From the IMG/VR virus record IMGVR_UViG_3300025671_000515, positions 1-24,377 of that record: a DNA stretch of 24,377 nucleotides. One strand, written 5' to 3'. Position numbers and translations under genes: made by a program. Under the pieces are notes generated by a model that saw only the letters and a list, made by a program, of their open reading frames with translations, was not told the DNA's origin and searched no databases. The stretch is from a virus. Shown in pieces: positions 2,927 to 22,755 of the stretch. Positions within the stretch are counted from its first letter, which is position 1. Every line of letters begins with the position of its first letter.

Positions 2927-3153
2927 TAGATTTGCTCAATTGCTTTTTGGATACGTTCTTCTTCGTTCCACATAAAGGTGTTTAGTAAATTATTAAAACA
3001 ACATTCTAAACGTATAAGTTGACCCCTCGTTAAAGTGATAGGTTCATCATAATCACTTGCGTGTTCACCTGTAATCTCTCGTAATAATTTACTGAAACTT
3101 TCCTGATTTTGTTCTAAACCAATATAAAACCGAGATCTTACAAGAGGAGCCAC
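2926..3153 (-). CDS. Hypothetical 75-aa protein after portal gene (GTG start)
   Basis: A small soluble helical protein with an acidic centre and a C-terminal amphipathic helix (EEERIQKAIEQI). It begins with GTG at 3151-3153, overlapping the TAG stop of the portal gene (TAGTG), with AAAGGGATGAT upstream as a plausible Shine-Dalgarno. It ends in a TAATG junction with the 57-aa zinc gene. The overlaps at both ends support real, coupled translation. No family is recognised. Confidence 0.55.
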   Translation of the reverse strand: MAPLVRSRFYIGLEQNQESFSKLLREITGEHASDYDEPITLTRGQLIRLECCFNNLLNTFMWNEEERIQKAIEQI

Positions 3154-5510
3154 TACATCATCCCTTTAGCACTTGGCATTGATTCATCCATCACTTGATT
3201 CGGGCCTTGAGGCATCATCTGACCCGCTTGGGGATCCACGGAACCTTGAGGCCCTGGTTGTCCTCCACCTCCACCCATCGATTGAGCAAACTGTTGGGCC
3301 ATCATCGCCATCTGTTGTTCCTGTTGGACCTTTACTTGTACCTGTTGCAGATAAGCCTGATAGATCATCCCAAAAGCAGGATCATTCTGGAGTAAGGGGG
3401 CAAAGCGAGGATCCTGTTGGAAGGTCATCAGGGTTTGGAGATGAATCTGTGCTCCTTCCGCTGGAACCCCTTGAGGGATGATTCCCTGAACCATCTGGCC
3501 CATCGCTTGTTCGGCTGAGATCCGTGGGGCATCTGCATCTGGAGGGGTATTCAAATAGCGATGTTCATCCTGGCCCACACTCACAATGTAATCCCGTAGA
3601 AGGTTATACATCTTGTCAGGGGCAGTCAGGCCCATCTGGATCGTCATCGGGTTCATAATCATGGGCATTAATTCTGACAAGATCTGACTCTGAATGGCTT
3701 TTGTGGTATTGAGAGAATTAGCCTTGAAATCAAACTGGAACATCCCCTGGATTTCCTTCACATCTTCCACCATCTGATAAGGATCTGCCCCTTGATGGGT
3801 GATGCCTGTAATACGGTATTGCTTTTGTGGGGGGAGGAAGACTTTATTCAATTCGTGCATCTGCTGATAGACTTCAGCCATACCCTTGAAGAAGCGACGA
3901 AGGATTCTTTCAGGGCGAGCATCCCCTTGTTGCATCAAGGCCATCATGTTCGTAGAGGTACGGAGAGCAGAGGCTTTCCCTTGAGGGACAGCCCCCATTT
4001 GGAGGGAACCTTGCATCGATTGACGCTCTGACCACTGTTGGACAAGGGCAATGATATTCATTGCCATGGCTTGATCGTCTTGAGGGAATTGGGGGATATA
4101 AATGTCCTGTTGGGGGTTCGAGACAGGATAACCACTCCCTGGTTCCATCTTGATCACTTCTGGTCGTACACCTGACGTAGAGCGATACAAGAACCATGGG
4201 GTATTACAAATCGTATGCTTATCAATGGCCTGATCCAAGATGATCTTGGTCAGGTCTTGCATGTGTTCGAGTAATTCAAGAAGACTCATCCCATAGAACT
4301 GACCAGGGATCGGGATAAACGCAGGAGAACAGGCAAAGGGACGTGGCCGTGAGAGGTCTTCCCTAGGAAATTCCTCCTCCAGATACCTCAAACGAGCAAG
4401 GGCTTTGATATTTCGAGACGGTCCTAGAATGACACGCGCCACGACTTCTTCTTCAAATTCATCATCCTTGAGTTGCCACTTCCCGAAATAGGTAAGGCGA
4501 GTGAATGTTTTAGAGGTAGTACGGGCGTTTCCATACTTCATTCCAGCCATGGAGTCCATGGCGATTTTGTGTTGTTCCGTATCCCCCGTCATCCCGGCAG
4601 GTTGATCACCCACTTCTGATTCAACACGTTCCTCGAATGCTTCAAAATCCTCTTCCGTAAGCAGGTCATAATACCCACTCTTATAAAGACGATGAATCTC
4701 ATCCCATGAGGGATAATCCACCATGATTACATGATCTGCCCCCATCGGGTTCGAGGGGGAGGGCGGTTGGAGATTCTCACACCGCGAGGGAATAATAATG
4801 TCTTCGAGCGATTTCGGGATAACACATGGTGCATCAAAAATAACTTTATCCCGAGTAATGATGCAATAATGCTGATCATCATCAACATAGAATTCACCCT
4901 TGATGGTTTCGAAATCCTTCTTTTCAGGGTGCTTGATAATGACGGTATAGGTATTCTCCTTTGTCGCCTTCACCATTCCTTGGGGGAAGGTATCATAAAG
5001 AAATTTCTCATAGAAGAGGCGAGGATCCACATTTGCGGGGAGAGGTGGTAGACGATGGACTTCACGCGCTTTTCGCTTTTCCTTGACCCATGGGACAAAG
5101 GCTATAAAGCGTGAGTCATTGACGAAGCTATCTGCCAGCATCGCCAATTTCTCCTCTCCATTCTGTTCCACAAAGAATTGATAATCTTGTAATTGGTCAA
5201 TCGTTTTGCCTTTATCACTGTCTCCTTTATTGACAGCCGTAGCAGACATAAGGGGACGAGCTGTGAGGGCCGCATTCTGAAGGGTATCCTGGGTCCTCTG
5301 GGTATTCGTCATCAACATGGGAACATGCTGATTGGAGGCATTGGGCCATGGATAATGCTTGGGTTCGAGCCAGCCAAACATCTTGGCATATCGCTGAATC
5401 CGACGAGAGGCCCAATCAGATCGATCTTGGATATCCTCGTCATACCGTTGGATGACAGTCTTGACGAAATCAGTTTTGTCTTCAGGTGTGATTGACTTAC
5501 GGGGTTTCAT
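3153..5510 (-). CDS. Portal protein, P22-like, 785 aa
   Basis: This is the dodecameric vertex ring through which DNA is packaged and ejected. The N-terminal region has the motif PWPNASNQHVPML (about residues 54-66), typical of long P22-type portals in which a helical start is followed by P-W-P-x-A-S-N. The length (785 aa) is near the 725 aa of P22 gp1 and much longer than HK97-type portals. The C-terminal ~100 residues are Gln/Met/Gly-rich (a QQ-repeat helix, a G5 run and a disordered tail), possibly equivalent to the barrel or tail region. The gene follows TerL with a TAATG overlap at 5508-5512, the standard terminase-portal order. The start has no clear Shine-Dalgarno, so coupling to TerL translation is likely. 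Confidence 0.88.
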   Translation of the reverse strand: MKPRKSITPEDKTDFVKTVIQRYDEDIQDRSDWASRRIQRYAKMFGWLEPKHYPWPNASNQHVPMLMTNTQRTQDTLQNAALTARPLMSATAVNKGDSDKGKTIDQLQDYQFFVEQNGEEKLAMLADSFVNDSRFIAFVPWVKEKRKAREVHRLPPLPANVDPRLFYEKFLYDTFPQGMVKATKENTYTVIIKHPEKKDFETIKGEFYVDDDQHYCIITRDKVIFDAPCVIPKSLEDIIIPSRCENLQPPSPSNPMGADHVIMVDYPSWDEIHRLYKSGYYDLLTEEDFEAFEERVESEVGDQPAGMTGDTEQHKIAMDSMAGMKYGNARTTSKTFTRLTYFGKWQLKDDEFEEEVVARVILGPSRNIKALARLRYLEEEFPREDLSRPRPFACSPAFIPIPGQFYGMSLLELLEHMQDLTKIILDQAIDKHTICNTPWFLYRSTSGVRPEVIKMEPGSGYPVSNPQQDIYIPQFPQDDQAMAMNIIALVQQWSERQSMQGSLQMGAVPQGKASALRTSTNMMALMQQGDARPERILRRFFKGMAEVYQQMHELNKVFLPPQKQYRITGITHQGADPYQMVEDVKEIQGMFQFDFKANSLNTTKAIQSQILSELMPMIMNPMTIQMGLTAPDKMYNLLRDYIVSVGQDEHRYLNTPPDADAPRISAEQAMGQMVQGIIPQGVPAEGAQIHLQTLMTFQQDPRFAPLLQNDPAFGMIYQAYLQQVQVKVQQEQQMAMMAQQFAQSMGGGGGQPGPQGSVDPQAGQMMPQGPNQVMDESMPSAKGMM

Positions 5511-7171
5511 TAATATCCATTCATCCGACCAGATCGCACTTCAATCGGCTTTCCAAGAGATTTCAAGCCACGAAAGGTGGGTTGATTGTTCATGACATAT
5601 TTGTTCAATGTGGGATAATCATCATATTTCTGCTTGGCCTTTTGCTTCTGATCCTTCTCCATAGACTTTTTGAAATCATCCCACGAATAGCGTTTCATCT
5701 GCTGAATGGTCCGCATACAACGGGGATCAATCATCCATCGTGGCTTTTGAGTCGATTGATCGGGCTTTAAATAATCATTCAACGCTTGCCGTCCTGCTTC
5801 CCCGTCATCCGCAAGATCAAACGTAAGGCCAGCTGTTTCAAAGGCATCTTGCCACGTAGTCTGACGATCAGTACTAGAAGGGCTCCGACCCATATTAGGG
5901 TCCATAATCCGCTGAATAGTTTTCCATCCATATTCACTTTCCAAGTCTTTCACTCGTTGAGCGACAATATCAGGAGAGCCATCGACTTCCATTTCCGCCA
6001 CTTGTTCCAGGTCATCATCAGGTGTGACTTGGACCCAGATTAACATGTGGGGCTTGCGGGGATGAGGATCTAAGGCATTAATCACTGGATACAGAGGATT
6101 CACTTGCAGTGGCTGTACGTGATTAAATGAGACTACTGAAGAGGATGAGCAGGTCCCGCAAGCCCCTGTTTCTGTAAGGATGGTAAGATCATTACACTCA
6201 AAACACCAAGTATGATCAGTATCAGTAAAGAGAGGGTGGACACGATTAGAAAGACGAAGGTGCTGACCGTAAATGCGAGTAGCCCGTTCAGCAGCTGTTA
6301 AATTTTTTGCCATTTGCGCAATGGCATCTTGATCCAAATTCTTATTTTCGGTTGCGTACATTTCAACCATTTCGTAATTTGGATCACGATCTTTTCCGGG
6401 GATACATTTTTCATAAACTCGATCAATCAGCCAATCAACGGGAATAGTCGGGTCATCTGGCCATGTCATGGAAAGGAACATTCGACCTTTGACACGGGCC
6501 GTTCGAACACTATTCTCAACCCAAATCATTTCTTTAGGTGGCTCATCATGCAGTACAATATGAAAGTCACCCGATGCAAAATCACTTGGATCTTGATCGT
6601 ATGACATGCACTGCAAACGAGAAATCCCTTTATACACACCTGTCACAGGATCATGATAGCGAACTTCCAACGTCCTTGTACGAGCCGTCCATGAATGGTC
6701 CCATTCGCCACGAATCAAACAATGCTGAGGTATCCACCCAAAATGCCCACGTGCCCCACCGGGTTGATCAACTCCTTGCCAATTCCACCACTTAAGTTTT
6801 GGAAGTATGATTGTTTCAAGTGTATTAGTAATTGATTCAACCACTAATCGACAATTGATAGGACCTCTAAATTTTTCTAATGGATAGATCTGCTTAAGAG
6901 AATCAGGTATAATCCCTGTCATACAAATAACCATATCCACCAAAGCCGTGTCCGTTTTGCTCGCCCCATTCCCTCCAGCTAAAAAGAACACACTCGTATT
7001 TGATTGATGAACACGGATTGCTTTTTCTGAAACAGGGATATAGTATTTTAATTGATTGGTTTGACGATCTTTTGCTTGTAAAGATAAAGCGTAATTTGCT
7101 AACTGGTTGAGTTCATCATCAGACAGTGAACCAAGTGAATTGATATCTAAATCAAGAAGATTAGTAGACAT
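5510..7171 (-). CDS. terL: Terminase large subunit (ATPase-nuclease), 553 aa
   Basis: This is the packaging motor that translocates and cuts concatemeric DNA at the portal. Walker A is GGNGASKT (residues 66-73) and Walker B is FHIVLHDE (203-210, with D209 and catalytic E210). A coupling-type segment FLSMTW lies near 232-237. The C-terminal RNase H-like nuclease has acidic candidates D368 (NALDPH), D424 (MDPNMG) and the DDY at 517-519. A four-cysteine cluster, CFEC (323-326) and CGTC (338-341), sits between the two domains and looks like a zinc-ribbon insertion. The gene follows an HNH gene and precedes the portal by a TAATG overlap. The family assignment is firm; the role of the zinc insertion is inference. 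Confidence 0.93.
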   Translation of the reverse strand: MSTNLLDLDINSLGSLSDDELNQLANYALSLQAKDRQTNQLKYYIPVSEKAIRVHQSNTSVFFLAGGNGASKTDTALVDMVICMTGIIPDSLKQIYPLEKFRGPINCRLVVESITNTLETIILPKLKWWNWQGVDQPGGARGHFGWIPQHCLIRGEWDHSWTARTRTLEVRYHDPVTGVYKGISRLQCMSYDQDPSDFASGDFHIVLHDEPPKEMIWVENSVRTARVKGRMFLSMTWPDDPTIPVDWLIDRVYEKCIPGKDRDPNYEMVEMYATENKNLDQDAIAQMAKNLTAAERATRIYGQHLRLSNRVHPLFTDTDHTWCFECNDLTILTETGACGTCSSSSVVSFNHVQPLQVNPLYPVINALDPHPRKPHMLIWVQVTPDDDLEQVAEMEVDGSPDIVAQRVKDLESEYGWKTIQRIMDPNMGRSPSSTDRQTTWQDAFETAGLTFDLADDGEAGRQALNDYLKPDQSTQKPRWMIDPRCMRTIQQMKRYSWDDFKKSMEKDQKQKAKQKYDDYPTLNKYVMNNQPTFRGLKSLGKPIEVRSGRMNGY

Positions 7172-7523: not shown

Positions 7524-8031
7524 TTGGTGGAACTTCTAGTGAAACTTTTCGTTCAGTTACATCTGCTTTTATGCCACGTCTTTTCACTTCAAGCAACAAA
7601 GCTGGTATTAGATCTTCAAGTTTCTTTGATTCCGCTTGCCCAATTATCGAAGTCGGTTGTCCTTCTAAAAGTAGGACCTTTTCGGTTGCTATACCCAACA
7701 TCACCCCAATATCCCTTAGCTTCGTCTCGGCCATCATGTCCTCGAGCCGATTGCCCTGATGGAGCCAATCCATCATTCTTCCTGAAAGCGTCTGCCATCG
7801 GTCCTTCAGATAGTCCCGATTGTACCGCTTGGTTGGCTCGGAGGAGTTCGGAATGGGTTCGGCTAACAAGCCCCCATTCGGTGTACGGTTTCGTAAGGTA
7901 AGGGGAGGCGTCGCCTTCGGCTCCGCATTCGGAGCTTTTAGGTTCTTCTGATTGGGGCTTTTCGTACCAGAGGACCCCCGTTGCGGGGTGTTGGGACTGG
8001 AGAGGACATTGTGGAATTTCTTGATCGGCAT
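7516..8031 (-). CDS. Putative terminase small subunit, 171 aa
   Basis: This is the first gene of the leftward arm, upstream of HNH and TerL, the usual place for TerS. The first ~65 residues are Pro/Asn/Ser/Lys-rich and probably disordered. From about residue 70 there is a helical domain with the segment RDIGVMLGIATEKVLLLEGQ, followed by a short Glu/Lys-rich helix and a basic C-terminal end. I recall this R/K-D-x-x-x-LGI-x-x-D/E-K-x-LL-EG pattern from small phage HTH or terminase-associated proteins. The start at 8031 has AGGTG about seven bases upstream. An overlapping frame from 8035 gives a less protein-like product. The TerS role rests mainly on position. Confidence 0.6.
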   Translation of the reverse strand: MPIKKFHNVLSSPNTPQRGSSGTKSPNQKNLKAPNAEPKATPPLTLRNRTPNGGLLAEPIPNSSEPTKRYNRDYLKDRWQTLSGRMMDWLHQGNRLEDMMAETKLRDIGVMLGIATEKVLLLEGQPTSIIGQAESKKLEDLIPALLLEVKRRGIKADVTERKVSLEVPPNV

Positions 8032-8177
8032 CCATATTCACCTAAGATAAGGAGGAAGAAAAGGGCCTTGTTGCCTCACTCGCACACACTACGGGCTCCC
8101 TATCACGGGACGATCTACGCATAGACCAGAGAGAGTTCCTGTACCCTTTCCCCTTTCATCCCATATCCCATATCTCT

Positions 8178-8186
8178 ATTATATCA
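8178..8186 (-). promoter_or_regulatory. Extended -10 promoter for the structural arm
   Basis: On the minus strand the sequence reads TGATATAAT, a perfect extended -10 (TGnTATAAT) for a housekeeping sigma factor. The -35 region is weak, as is usual for extended -10 promoters. It lies about 150 bases upstream of the putative TerS start and points leftward, so it could drive the packaging and structural operon. Confidence 0.5.
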
Positions 8187-8403
8187 CAATTGTCTCCTTT
8201 CTGACACACCCCTGATTTTTTCAGGAAAAGTGCTCCCATTCCCTGAACGGCTCTTCTCCCCCAATCCCCATAAACCCAAATAAATCAATTCGTTATCACA
8301 ATCATTATATAAGTCATTGATCTGGCTCATTTTGTTTGGGCGGTGCAAAGGGGAAATGGGACCCAAACACATGACGGCGGGGGGTCTGCCTGATCGATGC
8401 CGG

Positions 8404-8420
8404 TGGCATAGATCTTGCAT
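8404..8420 (+). promoter_or_regulatory. Sigma-54-type -24/-12 promoter element A
   Basis: The sequence TGGCATAGATCTTGCAT matches the sigma-54 (RpoN) consensus TGGCAC-N5-TTGCA with one mismatch in the fixed positions. The diagnostic GG and GC doublets are separated by exactly ten bases. It points rightward, toward the early arm. Sigma-54 promoters need an AAA+ activator; none is encoded in this window. Confidence 0.55.
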
Positions 8421-8429
8421 ACAATGACA

Positions 8430-8446
8430 CGGCACAAGCTTTGCAT
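8430..8446 (+). promoter_or_regulatory. Sigma-54-type -24/-12 promoter element B
   Basis: The sequence CGGCACAAGCTTTGCAT has GGCAC and TTGCA with ten bases between the GG and GC doublets. It lies 26 bases downstream of element A in the same orientation, so the two may be alternative start sites of one regulated promoter. Confidence 0.5.
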
Positions 8447-8572
8447 GTGGCTCAGGTTCCGATAATGTTTCATTATGTTAAAACGTATGTCCTTATATAT
8501 CAATAGCTTACACCACATGCCCCATACTTGATGGATGCTTAGTGCCCCAATCAAGTACCCTTGCTTCCATGC

Positions 8573-8589
8573 CTGCAATGCTTGTGCCC
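8573..8589 (-). promoter_or_regulatory. Sigma-54-type -24/-12 promoter element D (leftward)
   Basis: The minus strand reads GGGCACAAGCATTGCAG: GGCAC, ten-base doublet spacing, TTGCA. It closely resembles element B (GGCACAAGC then TTGCA). It points toward the structural arm, about 540 bases upstream of the putative TerS gene. A degenerate relative with altered spacing and a CC in place of the GC lies at about 8537-8555. Confidence 0.5.
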
Positions 8590-8652
8590 CATTGAGTGTA
8601 ACCTATGGATACATTGTTGAGTAGGTTAGTCAACATTCTTTTTATACCGGGC

Positions 8653-8669
8653 TGGCATGGTTCTTGCAT
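8653..8669 (+). promoter_or_regulatory. Sigma-54-type -24/-12 promoter element C
   Basis: The sequence TGGCATGGTTCTTGCAT differs from the TGGCACG-N4-TTGCA consensus only at one base of the -24 block and keeps the ten-base GG-GC spacing. It shares most positions with element A. It points rightward, toward the iterons and the early arm, about 690 bases upstream of the first early gene. Confidence 0.55.
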
Positions 8670-8798
8670 GTATCTACGTCCATCCCTTGTCCAATGTTTG
8701 TATCATGTGTGTCCAATGTGTGCACCCATGCACACCCATCCTTGTAGATATGAGGGAGTGTGTCATTTCTACAACAGAGTGTGTGATAAATACCACAG

Positions 8799-8816
8799 TG
8801 TATCTCTTTGGATACA
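8799..8816. repeat. Short inverted repeat (6-bp stem)
   Basis: TGTATC at 8799-8804 pairs with GATACA at 8811-8816 across a six-base loop. It lies between element C and the iterons. It could be a small operator half-site pair or a hairpin in a transcript from element C; no function is shown. Confidence 0.35.
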
Positions 8817-8826
8817 TCTATAGGGT

Positions 8827-8850
8827 GTAGGCATGGATGGAGATGCCTAC
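8827..8850. repeat. Inverted repeat, perfect 8-bp stem
   Basis: GTAGGCAT at 8827-8834 pairs perfectly with ATGCCTAC at 8843-8850 across an eight-base loop, just left of the first iteron array. There is no T-run after it, so it is not a standard terminator. An operator or origin-associated hairpin is possible. Confidence 0.45.
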
Positions 8851-8867
8851 CCCTCTACTACCACAAC

Positions 8868-8903
8868 CGTATAAAACGTATATTTCGTATATTTCGTATA
8901 TAA
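8868..8903. repeat. Iteron array 1: four tandem 9-bp units
   Basis: Four consecutive 9-mers follow the pattern CGTATANNN: CGTATAAAA, CGTATATTT, CGTATATTT, CGTATATAA. The array is preceded by CACAAC. The same arrangement recurs at 8937. Tandem iterons beside inverted repeats and AT-rich DNA are typical of phage and plasmid origins, where an initiator protein binds them; operators for a repressor are the alternative. Confidence 0.65.
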
Positions 8904-8936
8904 ACCCCACCGATGACCCTACCCCCCAGACACAAC

Positions 8937-8972
8937 CGTATATTTCGTATAAAACGTATATAACGTATATAA
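8937..8972. repeat. Iteron array 2: four tandem 9-bp units
   Basis: Four 9-mers, CGTATATTT, CGTATAAAA, CGTATATAA and CGTATATAA, are again preceded by CACAAC. Start-to-start distance to array 1 is 69 bases. Both arrays have exactly four units with the same core, the order of the variable last three bases differing. This argues for a maintained protein-binding array rather than drifted simple sequence. Confidence 0.65.
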
Positions 8973-8986
8973 CTAACTACAACCGG

Positions 8987-9011
8987 CGCCCCCCAAGACA
9001 AAAGGGGGGCG
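8987..9011. repeat. GC-rich inverted repeat, 8-bp stem
   Basis: CGCCCCCC at 8987-8994 pairs with GGGGGGCG at 9004-9011 across a nine-base A-rich loop. It is a strong hairpin in an otherwise AT-rich area immediately after iteron array 2. No T-run follows on either strand, so a rho-independent terminator is unlikely. A structural origin element is a reasonable alternative. Confidence 0.5.
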
Positions 9012-9022
9012 ATAAGTTTAGT

Positions 9023-9059
9023 GTATATATAGCATTTATCGTGTATTTGCTATATATAC
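9023..9059. repeat. Perfect 12-bp dyad (operator/origin element)
   Basis: GTATATATAGCA at 9023-9034 pairs perfectly with TGCTATATATAC at 9048-9059 across 13 bases. The inner half-sites TATAGCA and TGCTATA also occur as a dyad in the divergent promoter at 17342-17372, so both may bind the same dimeric regulator. Confidence 0.55.
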
Positions 9060-9100
9060 GGTCCCTATTATAGGGGCCACCCTCTCTATCTTGGGTGGCC
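9060..9100. repeat. Two abutting inverted repeats
   Basis: A 19-base near-palindrome (9060-9078, GGTCCCTATTATAGGGGCC) overlaps an 8-bp stem-loop: GGCCACCC at 9075-9082 and GGGTGGCC at 9093-9100 with a ten-base loop. A further 5-bp stem (CTCCG/CGGAG) lies at 9123-9137. The overlap means the two larger hairpins exclude each other, a layout that could act as a switch in RNA or as a protein-binding site in DNA. Confidence 0.45.
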
Positions 9101-9171
9101 TGCTATAGGATAGACTGGATGCCTCCGAATACCGGAGCGGAGCGACGGCCTGAGAGGATATGTAGCACATT

Positions 9172-9242
9172 TGAAATGGCAAACAAAAACGCCACACTTA
9201 TCTAACTATATGTAATATATCACAAATAGTATGAAATGGCAA
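9172..9242. repeat. Direct repeats of TGAAATGGCAAA
   Basis: TGAAATGGCAAA occurs at 9172-9183 and again at 9231-9242. Between them is AACTATATGTAATATATCA at 9203-9221, a near copy of a box at 9311-9327. The region is AT-rich and lies just upstream of the early promoter, so the repeats are candidate activator or repressor sites, or part of a DNA-unwinding element. Confidence 0.4.
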
Positions 9243-9287
9243 AAATCACACACTTCATTAATGCAAATTCGCCACAACTTGTAAGTG

Positions 9288-9296
9288 TGATATAAA
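9288..9296 (+). promoter_or_regulatory. Extended -10 promoter for the early arm
   Basis: The plus strand reads TGATATAAA, an extended -10 sequence (TGnTATAAT with one mismatch). It lies about 60 bases upstream of the first early ATG at 9358. The -35 region is poor. It mirrors the TGATATAAT promoter of the structural arm. Confidence 0.45.
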
Positions 9297-9314
9297 TCAT
9301 ACAATCTCATAACT

Positions 9315-9330
9315 ATATGATATATCATAT
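9315..9330. promoter_or_regulatory. 16-bp perfect palindrome, candidate operator
   Basis: ATATGATATATCATAT is a perfect palindrome flanked by two ATAACTATA copies (from 9309 and 9329). It lies just downstream of the extended -10 element, where a bound repressor would block early transcription. The very AT-rich composition makes chance palindromes more likely, so confidence is limited. Confidence 0.4.
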
Positions 9331-9357
9331 AACTATACGATTTTATAGGATGGCATC

Positions 9358-9576
9358 ATGTGTGCAATAGGTAGAGGTATGAATACAAACAACAATCAGA
9401 GATGCTTCTTGTGTGACAAACTTATGAAGCGTCCTATTATGGCAGACACACATGATGGGCAGATTGTTCTGATTGGCCCTGAATGCCACAAACATGTGAA
9501 AGCAGCAGGAGAGCAAGGGTATGGCGGAAAAGATTGGAAACCAGGGTATGTAAGAGTGTATCCTATGAAGGCATGA
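9358..9576 (+). CDS. First early gene: small zinc-binding protein, 72 aa
   Basis: It has CFLC at residues 16-19 and a GPEC segment about 28 residues later, followed by HKHV. This is a Cys/His arrangement suited to one zinc ion and common in small phage early proteins. The start has AGGATGG about six bases upstream. It is the first gene after the control region and ends in a TGA immediately followed by the first copy of the repeated leader cassette. Function is unknown; regulators or host-takeover proteins often occupy this place. Confidence 0.65.
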   Translation: MCAIGRGMNTNNNQRCFLCDKLMKRPIMADTHDGQIVLIGPECHKHVKAAGEQGYGGKDWKPGYVRVYPMKA

Positions 9577-15824: not shown

Positions 15825-15975
15825 TGAATGCAGGCGACAGGGACATGATATGTTTGGATTTGTTCACTATATCCCGAAGGAGTTAATTGACGATGCCACC
15901 ACGGAATATGAATCCCTTACCAGGGAAGATGCCAAACGGACAAGACAAGGAAGAATACACAAGAAAGTGCCATGA
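15799..15975 (+). CDS. Hypothetical protein, 58 aa
   Basis: The ATG at 15799 is chosen because GGAAGGAAG lies just upstream; the longer frame from 15754 is only overlap with the previous gene. The peptide is helical with a basic C-terminus (REDAKRTRQGRIHKK). It overlaps the sigma-factor gene by 83 bases. The overlap lowers confidence somewhat. Confidence 0.45.
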   Translation: MKAIKKLLDECRRQGHDMFGFVHYIPKELIDDATTEYESLTREDAKRTRQGRIHKKVP

Positions 15976-16498
15976 ACTCATAGAAACACAATACAAAAAA
16001 CTTGTCAAAATTGCTCGTTATGAAACACGAGGAGATGAGATCTGGGCACAGGAACTTCTTCAAGATACCCTTCTACTACTCTTAGAGGGCTATCATAATG
16101 TGAACTTTAATAAGTCTCCTATGACGTATATTCAAATTATGATGCGACATTTGAAGGGGAGGCATAAGCAACTCAAGCAGAAGAATTTCAATCGAACCGC
16201 TTTAGTGGCGTATGATCCGAGAAGTCCTACAATTGAAAAGTATTTAGAAGAGGAAGGAAAACAAACGGATATTGAATTTTTACTAGAACATTTTCATGAA
16301 TTACGATCTGGGTTAACTGCGAAACAAATGCAAATTATTGAATGGCATTTAGATGGGTGTCCTCAATTAGCTATAGCAAAGACTCTTAATGTTTCTAAGA
16401 CTCGGGTGGGTCAGATTCTCCTAGAGGTAAAGAAGAGACTACGGAAGAAGGGCTTAATTCTTCTTCGAGGCGACTCATCAAATGATCGGGGATCGTGA
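15893..16498 (+). CDS. Sigma-70-family RNA polymerase sigma factor (ECF-like), 201 aa
   Basis: Residues ~28-95 fit sigma region 2: a helical block with ELLQDTLLLLLEG and a PMTYIQIMMRHLKGRH segment like the -10-binding helix. Residues ~139-187 fit region 4: LTAKQMQIIEWHLDG, then LAIAKTLNVSKTRVGQILLEVKKRL, a clear helix-turn-helix for the -35 box. There is no region 1.1 or 3, as in ECF factors. It would redirect host RNA polymerase to phage promoters, plausibly those of the late arm or the divergent promoter at 17342. GGAG lies ten bases upstream of ATG 15893. Its 3' end overlaps the convergent helicase gene by 104 bases. Confidence 0.75.
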   Translation: MPPRNMNPLPGKMPNGQDKEEYTRKCHELIETQYKKLVKIARYETRGDEIWAQELLQDTLLLLLEGYHNVNFNKSPMTYIQIMMRHLKGRHKQLKQKNFNRTALVAYDPRSPTIEKYLEEEGKQTDIEFLLEHFHELRSGLTAKQMQIIEWHLDGCPQLAIAKTLNVSKTRVGQILLEVKKRLRKKGLILLRGDSSNDRGS

Positions 16499-20120: not shown

Positions 20121-20258
20121 GCCCCAGATACCGATGGTGAGGTGCTGGCATTTAGGCTTGATGGTCTCTGTGAACCATGGATAACGGTAAAATCGTCACC
20201 AGGCACAACTTGAAACTCAAGAGCTGGGTACGTTGGTTCGAATCCAACCTGGGGCCCA
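20121..20258 (+). other. tRNA-like element, interrupted or degenerate
   Basis: The 5' GCCCCAG (20121-20127) pairs over seven bases with CTGGGGC (20249-20255), followed by CCA at 20256-20258. A perfect T-arm lies just before the 3' acceptor strand: GTTGG / TTCGAAT loop / CCAAC (20232-20248), including the GGTTCGAATCC consensus. A D-arm-like ACC...GGT occurs at 20130-20143. The element is about 138 bases, too long for a normal tRNA, and no convincing anticodon arm can be placed. The middle holds other stems (ATGGT/ACCAT at 20161-20178; CTTGA/TCAAG near 20209-20221). It could be a tRNA with an insertion, a decayed tRNA or a tRNA-mimicking leader of the polymerase mRNA. Confidence 0.4.
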
Positions 20259-20259
20259 T

Positions 20260-22755
20260 ATGAATCAGAAACCTGATACGTGTAAAGGATGCCCTCTCTA
20301 TAAGGAAAGTTATGGCTTTGTCCCTGATGAAGAGCGTCCTTCTACCGTGGCAGTCTTGGGGTATATGCCTTCGAAGGAGGATGTTCAAGGGAGACACCTC
20401 GTTGGGTATGCTGGAAAAGGTCAGCCACTCTATGAAACAGTGCCGTCTAAGCCCTTTATTGGCTCAGCGGGGTGGTTACTCACCAATACCTATCTTCCAT
20501 CTGCCTCCCTCAAACGAGAGGATGTCTCCCTCCATCATATCCTCAAGTGTCATGCTCCAGGGAAATTACCTTGGGATACTCAACTCGCAGCAGAACATCA
20601 TTGTGTCAGTACGCACCTCACTATCTCAGATGAGTGTCAACTGCTGATTACAATTGGTGAGGACCCCTGGAGAGTTCTTCAGGGGTCCGCTCTGCCGCTG
20701 ATTGATTGGAGGGGATTTTGTGGGCCTAAACCTTTACTTGAAGGACAATGCCAAGTGTACGCGACGAGTGACTTGGGTGATTTGTATCGTGATCCCCATC
20801 TTCGTTTTGTTACTCGTCTTGACTGGAAAAAAACTAAGTCAATCCGGTCGGGTGATTATCCCTCACCCATCCCACAACAATGTATTGCCTCCCCCTCCAC
20901 ACGGGGAGAATTTATCCGCCTATTAGATGAGGCGTTATGTCAACCAGAGATCATGGTCGATACCGAATATATCCCCTCCAAGGGGCTTCTCACCCATGTT
21001 GGCGCTGCGTGGCTTGCTTCCCCCTCGAAGGAATTGACGAATACACCGAACTCCAAGTTATCGAAGGTGCGGGGTTTCCAGCTCGAATGGGTACATGGAA
21101 GTGCGACCAGTGTCGAGCGAGCTATCTTTATGAGGTATTGGCCCCAACTGTGCCGGAAGGTTAAGATGGGGTTCTGGAATGCCAAGGCGGATCTTCCTAT
21201 TCTTGAGAATAATCTTCATGATATCCCTGATCGAATAGAAGATCCCATGCAAGCCCATGCGGTCTTGTGGTCTGATATGCCCCATGATTTTGAATTTGTG
21301 GCTTCCATTTATGGAAAGTACCCCAAGTTAAAACATCTCTCTAAAGAGAATATCCTACTCTACCATTGGGGGGATTGTATCGATCTGGTGTGGATCTGGG
21401 AAGCCTTGAAGGAGGAATTTAAGCATGAAAAGAAGTGTGAAGAAAAATACCGAGGACAAAACCTTAAACTCATCCCTCTTATACTCGAACGAGAAAAAGA
21501 AGGTATCCGAGTCAACCAGAAACGGGTTGCAGAAGCCATACCAGAACACGAAACCCTCTCGCAAGCCGCCTCCGTCCTTGCCCAAGCATACTGCGGATTT
21601 CCTATCAACCTCGGATCCTATGGACAACTTATGGGTTATCTGGGGTCTGGCGAGGGTCTTAGATTACGATCAATGGATCAAGATACTCTCTCCGTCAGTC
21701 GTGCAAAGTATCTCCCATTCGATCCTGATCAAGAAGACAGGGAAGGATTCTCCGTTAGCTACATACACCAGCGGACCTCCCAAGGTGCGCATCCACTCCT
21801 CGAACTAAGGACGATGTATGCGAAAAATGAAAAAATCGTGTCAGGATATCTGGGAGCATTATCAGGCGTTGGAAGGGTCTATCCGCAAATCAATTTCCAT
21901 ACGCAAGTTACAGGCCGACATTCCACTACAAACCCTGCTCTTGCGACTTTCCCAGACTACCTCAGAGATACTGTCATGCCTGATGAAGGGTGCTGTTGGA
22001 TCGGGTTCGATTGGGATGCCCAAGAACCACGGATCCAGTGGGGGGAAAGCGGAAGTAAAGTCCTTGAACGAGCTTTTACAGCAAACGAAGACATCCATAC
22101 TACCTTCGTCTGTGATCTTTACGGATGGGCGTATCCAACAGATCGTGGAAACCCCCACAGTTCCAGCGTCGACTGTGGTTGGCGGGATGCTCACAATTGG
22201 GGTGGCAAAGAAGATCCACGACGCATTTTCGCTAAGCAAGTCCGCTACGAAATCAACTATGACCACACAGAAAAAGCGTATAATGCCCAACAAAAGGCAA
22301 CAAGAATGGGAATCAATCCGGCCATTGCTGGACAAGCTGCCCAAGTCCTCTTGAATAGTGACCCTGAATTACGTTCATGGTTTCAACAAATCATGAAAGA
22401 TGGTGAAAAGACTCGTATCACTCGATCATGGGGTGGGGGTCGGAGGGTGTATTATTGGGCTGATTCCTTTGCGAAGTTACCCCTGAATGAAATGCGGAAT
22501 TATCCTCTTCAAGCAGGTGGGGCTGATCTCTATAATTTGACGATTGTAGAAGTGTGTGAGAAAGTGAAGGAGGCAAAATTTGTCTATGGGATGCACGATA
22601 GTATGTGGTTCTCTGTTCCTACTGATCGTGTTGAATCTCTGTTACCTCGAATACAGGCTGTGGTCACACAGCCACGATTGATCAATAGCAGGATGATTCC
22701 GTTTCCGGCATCTTTTAAGATTATGTATGACGATGGACGAGTGAAAAAATTATGA
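20260..22755 (+). CDS. UDG-like domain fused to family A DNA polymerase, 831 aa
   Basis: Residues 1-190 resemble family 4 uracil-DNA glycosylases with four Fe-S cysteines (C8, C11, C97, C115), a fusion known from SPO1-type polymerases. The GEAPG motif is replaced by GYMPS and the HP(S/A) motif has no His, so glycosylase activity is doubtful. The 3'-5' exonuclease has D234/E236 (VDTEYI), D311 and Y368-x3-D372. The polymerase has motif A DWDAQEPR (584-591), motif B with R655 and K659 followed by YEINYD instead of the usual [FY]G..YG, and motif C HDS (779-781) instead of HDE. It replicates the phage genome. ATG 20260 is preceded by GGGG only, directly after the tRNA-like element. Confidence 0.9.
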   Translation: MNQKPDTCKGCPLYKESYGFVPDEERPSTVAVLGYMPSKEDVQGRHLVGYAGKGQPLYETVPSKPFIGSAGWLLTNTYLPSASLKREDVSLHHILKCHAPGKLPWDTQLAAEHHCVSTHLTISDECQLLITIGEDPWRVLQGSALPLIDWRGFCGPKPLLEGQCQVYATSDLGDLYRDPHLRFVTRLDWKKTKSIRSGDYPSPIPQQCIASPSTRGEFIRLLDEALCQPEIMVDTEYIPSKGLLTHVGAAWLASPSKELTNTPNSKLSKVRGFQLEWVHGSATSVERAIFMRYWPQLCRKVKMGFWNAKADLPILENNLHDIPDRIEDPMQAHAVLWSDMPHDFEFVASIYGKYPKLKHLSKENILLYHWGDCIDLVWIWEALKEEFKHEKKCEEKYRGQNLKLIPLILEREKEGIRVNQKRVAEAIPEHETLSQAASVLAQAYCGFPINLGSYGQLMGYLGSGEGLRLRSMDQDTLSVSRAKYLPFDPDQEDREGFSVSYIHQRTSQGAHPLLELRTMYAKNEKIVSGYLGALSGVGRVYPQINFHTQVTGRHSTTNPALATFPDYLRDTVMPDEGCCWIGFDWDAQEPRIQWGESGSKVLERAFTANEDIHTTFVCDLYGWAYPTDRGNPHSSSVDCGWRDAHNWGGKEDPRRIFAKQVRYEINYDHTEKAYNAQQKATRMGINPAIAGQAAQVLLNSDPELRSWFQQIMKDGEKTRITRSWGGGRRVYYWADSFAKLPLNEMRNYPLQAGGADLYNLTIVEVCEKVKEAKFVYGMHDSMWFSVPTDRVESLLPRIQAVVTQPRLINSRMIPFPASFKIMYDDGRVKKL

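Follow-up and report, generated by a model that had tools for sequence, protein, structure and literature searches.

Sigma-54-type elements in the control region of a virus record and in arrays across other phages

The control region between the two gene arms of an IMG/VR virus record carries four copies of a motif resembling the promoters of bacterial sigma-54 (RpoN), which raises the question of whether a phage could place part of its gene programme under this host factor. The record was analysed over its whole length of 24,377 bases, hereafter the window. Its left part is a leftward structural arm, encoding the portal protein, the terminase and an HNH endonuclease, and its right part a rightward arm of small genes with an ECF-like sigma factor, a family A DNA polymerase and an exonuclease. 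An AAA_25 (RepA-like) protein is encoded on the strand opposite to the right arm. A divergent control region, spanning roughly 8031–9358, separates the two arms and holds the sigma-54-type elements. The main genes are as follows:

3153..5510, minus strand: portal protein (SU10_portal)
5510..7171, minus strand: terminase large subunit, weak profile match; structural arm, leftward; 15 relatives
9358..9576, plus strand: first well-supported right-arm open reading frame, 72 aa, Shine-Dalgarno present; opens the plus-strand non-structural arm
15887..16498, plus strand: ECF-like sigma-70-family protein, 203 aa, inside the arm to which the elements point
20233..22755, plus strand: family A DNA polymerase

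The ECF-like protein matched PHROG sigma-factor families (E 3e-7) and, in Pfam, region 2 followed by region 4 in the proper order, both below the cut-off. Its best Foldseek matches were likewise ECF sigma factors, as judged from a query model of modest quality, and a homolog with 34% identity lies at L135 5493–6080, in the syntenic arm of a 51-kb relative. Of note, a sigma-70 region 2 protein was also found in one group of the array-bearing loci described below (L022, L031, L040, L060, L157, L205 and L208).

Four elements between the arms

The elements and the conserved block that precedes them are:

8339..8363, plus strand: conserved block GGYGKTGCAA...GAAATGGGACC, 66–70 bp upstream of the first element; also in L003, L004, L010 and L006
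8404..8420, plus strand: sigma-54-type element E1, TGGCATAGATCTTGCAT, exact match, 20.4 bits; counterpart in L003, L004 and L010
8430..8446, plus strand: sigma-54-type element E2, CGGCACAAGCTTTGCAT, exact match, 16.5 bits; 26 bp after E1
8573..8589, minus strand: sigma-54-type element E4, GGGCACAAGCATTGCAG, exact match, 15.0 bits; no counterpart in relatives
8653..8669, plus strand: sigma-54-type element E3, TGGCATGGTTCTTGCAT, 24.1 bits, the best of the window; counterparts in L003, L004 and L010

Positions and strands agree with those given in a preliminary description of this DNA, and the improbable clustering claimed there was confirmed. The pattern GGCAYN5TTGCA occurs exactly four times in the window, all within 266 bases, compared with 0.09 expected from 100 dinucleotide shuffles of the window (maximum 1). 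When two mismatches were allowed, 46 matches were obtained against 37 expected, with no clear excess elsewhere in the window, and the stringent pattern yielded three sites in the control region and none in the other 23 kb. The GG and GC doublets lie 10 bases apart, as required by sigma-54-dependent promoters (−24 GG, −12 TGC). The scan with an RpoN matrix that had been proposed at the outset was performed with a position matrix derived from 223 sites in the arrays of phages of an unrelated lineage; E3, E1, E2 and E4, in this order, took the first four ranks of the window, and the next site scored 10.7 bits. Over 30 shuffles, the best score per shuffle averaged 13.6 bits and reached 17.6 bits at most. 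E1 and E3 score higher than any site in the 30 shuffles and are therefore individually beyond chance, whereas E2 and E4 fall inside the shuffle range and are significant mainly through clustering.

A search with the terminase recovered 15 related loci. Among relatives with enough upstream DNA, elements equivalent to the plus-strand ones were kept in the same place in L003, L004 and L010, where the first element or pair sits 66–70 bp after the conserved block and the counterpart of E3 follows 240–277 bp past the first element. L004 carries a tandem pair, 28 bp apart, at the position of E1 and E2, and both L003 and L004 have a third element directly before the first gene of the right arm. Stringent matches in the 51-kb relative (G002) were confined to the control region, with four there versus none elsewhere. 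L006, which keeps the conserved block, and L013 have no elements at the corresponding region, which indicates that elements have been gained and lost.

The minus-strand element E4 has no counterpart among the relatives. As only plus-strand elements are matched there, the earlier proposal that the promoters face both arms proved unsupported: the minus-strand element is the weakest of the four, and its role as a leftward promoter was rejected for lack of conservation. E4 is probably non-functional or an extra; the credible elements are the three on the plus strand. These point toward the right arm, with E3 approximately 690 bp from the first clear gene of that arm and strong hairpins lying in the interval.

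Several other features were noted around the elements. The conserved block at 8339–8363 is followed by a G-rich run. Since L006 keeps the block without any elements, it is probably a packaging or other site, and its reading as an enhancer was set aside; an apparent dyad around the block was not conserved in L003. Farther right, clustered direct repeats of the CGTATATTT/CGTATAAAA type, a candidate binding-site array, occupy 8862–8972 just upstream of three consecutive strong hairpins (8975–9125, plus strand; z-score −5.5), a possible structured leader, small RNA or terminator. The preliminary description had also suggested that the elements could drive small RNAs or link infection to the nitrogen, motility or stress status of the host. 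Rfam and tRNA scans returned no matches. From the terminase arm to the opening gene of the right arm, the plus strand showed no sigma-70-like promoter, and overall, sigma-70-like promoter matches were at the chance level of the shuffles.

Arrays of the motif in other phages

The motif recurs in arrays of 2–11 copies, spaced every 24–30 bp, in well over 100 IMG/VR contigs from several unrelated lineages. At least 119 loci carried tandem pairs, at least 120 carried triples and at least 120 carried pairs at the single fixed spacing of 27 bp, although some of these matches in the viral collection are still coding repeats or may be host DNA. Such patterns might in principle arise by chance or from tandem repeats in protein-coding sequence: a scrambled pair of equal composition gave 64 matches in IMG/VR, and a search of 257 billion bases of cell genomes with the triple pattern gave 115, nearly all of them coding repeats. 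The scrambled matches had a spacing divisible by 3 in 64 of 64 cases, and 36 of the 64 were nearly identical copies in tandem, as coding repeats would produce. The real pairs behaved differently, as their spacing remainders modulo 3 split 42/34/43 and their copies had diverged in 99 of 119 cases, both among the 119 matches listed, and a mirrored-pattern control gave 3 matches. Together with the four elements in the window against 0.09 expected, these controls answer this explanation for the window and most loci, and we consider it extremely improbable. As to the cell-genome triples, inspection left about eight of the 115 with diverged copies in mostly non-coding DNA. At least two of them lie in phage contigs (L230 and L259), and L230 matches array phages at up to 93%.

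The details of the motif bear on its identity. Across some 200 array loci, which had been fetched for holding at least one pair with the 5-base spacing, only the 5-base spacer was enriched, with 595 matches versus 1–12 for spacers of 2–4 and 6–9 bases. When GG-N10-GC alone was fixed beside another site, the columns converged on TTGGCACGrNtNTTGCAtg, in agreement with the RpoN sites listed in PMC3844500. Owing to this preselection, the spacer and consensus counts describe the arrays, and it is the scrambled and mirrored controls that show enrichment. The motif could also be the site of another protein, such as a phage regulator or replication initiator, that merely resembles an RpoN site; dense arrays do look like iterons or operators, and some pairs are near-palindromic. 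We regard this as quite improbable, given that the RpoN consensus accounts for both the fixed and the free positions, with a free 5-base spacer and an exact GG-N10-GC, that spacers vary between the copies of one array, unlike in iterons, and that the motif recurs across unrelated lineages.

By gene content, the loci can be sorted into several groups. The largest has 85 of its 86 arrays on the 5′ side of the terminase, at a median distance of 1.25 kb, with 312 of 407 elements oriented away from that gene. After dereplication to 28 terminases below 80% identity, 16 lineages were net away and 7 toward (P = 0.09), a bias so weak that orientation alone leaves function unsettled. Same-strand spacing peaked at 26–29 bp, and convergent pairs at 20–21 bp were common. 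The 236-kb viral contig L125 carries repeated convergent pairs, 21 bp apart, at 1864, 7567, 9889, 10406 and 10972, and the two members of such a facing pair could hardly be active together. In 23 of 71 loci of the largest group, e.g. L149 and L096, a GTGG(C/T)-ACTAC-ATTAT block precedes the first element by 52–53 or 72–73 bp; it is a possible enhancer or packaging site.

Searches by tblastn with terminases, capsid, primase, helicase and polymerase revealed no close isolate carrying arrays, and the sequenced phages related to array lineages (HTVC115P, HTVC103P and DSL-LC05) have no elements. The terminase of the pelagiphages HTVC115P and HTVC103P is 64–66% identical to that of an array-bearing phage; Pelagibacter is not known to encode RpoN. 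The GenBank podovirus MW202742 (L457), whose DNA polymerase is 30% identical to that of the window, has two strong sigma-54-type elements near the terminase, at 7041 (minus strand) and 7228 (plus strand). Shine-Dalgarno usage was uninformative for host inference. Six of seven metagenome-assembled genomes (MAGs) with non-coding arrays encode RpoN, a weak indication, since phage contigs are liable to mis-binning.

Promoters or decoys

We favour, with a probability of roughly 0.7, the reading that the control region is a small array of promoters for the host sigma-54 (RpoN) RNA polymerase serving the right arm. The evidence comprises the motif, its spacing and clustering, its conservation among relatives, its orientation in the lineage of the window and its recurrence in other phages. 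The core of the preliminary description, i.e. sigma-54-type elements in a phage control region, stands on spacing, consensus, relatives and the arrays of unrelated phages, and its extension to both arms is unsupported. Sigma-54 polymerase forms stable closed complexes without an activator, and its promoters are silent without one driven by ATP. In the proposed mechanism, RpoN-polymerase would bind E1, E2 and E3 as stable closed complexes, on which an AAA+ enhancer-binding activator, presumably of the host, would act. Transcription would then run rightward into the non-structural arm, i.e. the small genes and those of the ECF-like sigma factor, DNA polymerase and exonuclease, and the ECF-like factor may thereafter serve other, later genes.

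The search for a phage-borne AAA+ activator, which the preliminary description had recommended outside the window, found none: PF00158 was absent from the 51-kb relative and from 38 other viral array contigs. Sigma-54 itself (PF04552) was absent from 40 viral records, and T7-type RNA polymerase (PF00940) from 40 records, the latter model detecting T7-like phages as a positive control. As many of the searched records are fragments, the absence of these partners is not final.

Several observations speak against promoters. Some arrays are mixed or convergent, so that not all elements can fire, and a spacing of 24–30 bp looks too tight for neighbouring polymerases acting at once. The weak orientation bias after dereplication, the lack of elements in L006 and L013, and the distance of E3 from the first clear right-arm gene, with hairpins in that interval, count on the same side. 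The elements might instead be decoys that tie up the host sigma-54 polymerase and thereby shut down host functions under RpoN control, or stress responses. Arrays of up to 11 copies every 26–28 bp, often on both strands and with convergent pairs, have the look of maximal packing, and the records searched encode no activator. Against such a sponge, the window and its relatives hold few elements, mostly in plus orientation, and the arrays remain beside the divergent junction. Moreover, elements sit just upstream of individual genes in a 383-kb jumbo contig (G043:C75), which was binned with a Chitinophagales MAG and is a phage as judged by its DNA polymerase, terminase and tail sheath. There, 34 of 51 elements are found inside one 20-kb stretch of small genes (300001–320000, L379), and the element nearest to a gene generally precedes the ATG by 59–168 bp. 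No other observation favours promoters over decoys as strongly as this placement, and we deem decoys unlikely. A GGATCGCATCTTA-like leader recurs after several arrays of the same contig.

If promoters they are, the need of sigma-54 promoters for an activator would tie a phage gene arm to the regulatory state of the host, unlike classic sigma-70 early promoters. The arrays suggest that the host RpoN switch sets off part of the gene programme in many phages. We further consider it a slightly less than even proposition that unrelated tailed phages, including a jumbo phage, independently made the host sigma-54 polymerase a dedicated switch via dense junction arrays, in some lineages with a sigma factor of their own, yielding an RpoN-first programme possibly accompanied by titration of host RpoN. 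Should promoter function hold for the many phage contigs recovered, phages would commonly use a mode of transcription that is open to testing, their hosts would be strongly required to possess RpoN, and array carriage could help predict the hosts of uncultured phages. Almost all Actinomycetota lack rpoN (PMC12316311). If the elements were decoys instead, they would constitute a DNA-based way of disarming a host sigma factor.

Comparison with known systems

The promoter type itself is known. No account of phage control regions using it, and above all none of dense sigma-54 promoter arrays in many phages, was found in the open-access literature searched. The −24/−12 promoters of bacterial sigma-54, such as those of pspA, glnA and glnK (PMC3844500), share the same TGGCAY-N5-TTGCA with an exact GG-N10-GC. 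The phage elements differ from them in often forming dense arrays and in having no identified enhancer or activator gene. Among the 257 billion bases of cell genomes, such arrays turned up outside coding repeats in only about eight cases, at least two of them in phage contigs. The tandem early promoters A1–A3 of phage T7 are likewise clustered host-polymerase promoters ahead of a gene arm, but they use sigma-70 and are activator-free, whereas the elements described here are of the activator-dependent sigma-54 type. Finally, T7 Gp2 and Xp10 P7 (PMC3778932, PMC5053324), as well as phage-encoded sigma factors, also manipulate the usage of host RNA polymerase, and the window also encodes an ECF-like sigma factor. 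Gp2 and P7, however, are protein inhibitors, whereas the elements of the control region are DNA sites that would recruit the host sigma-54.
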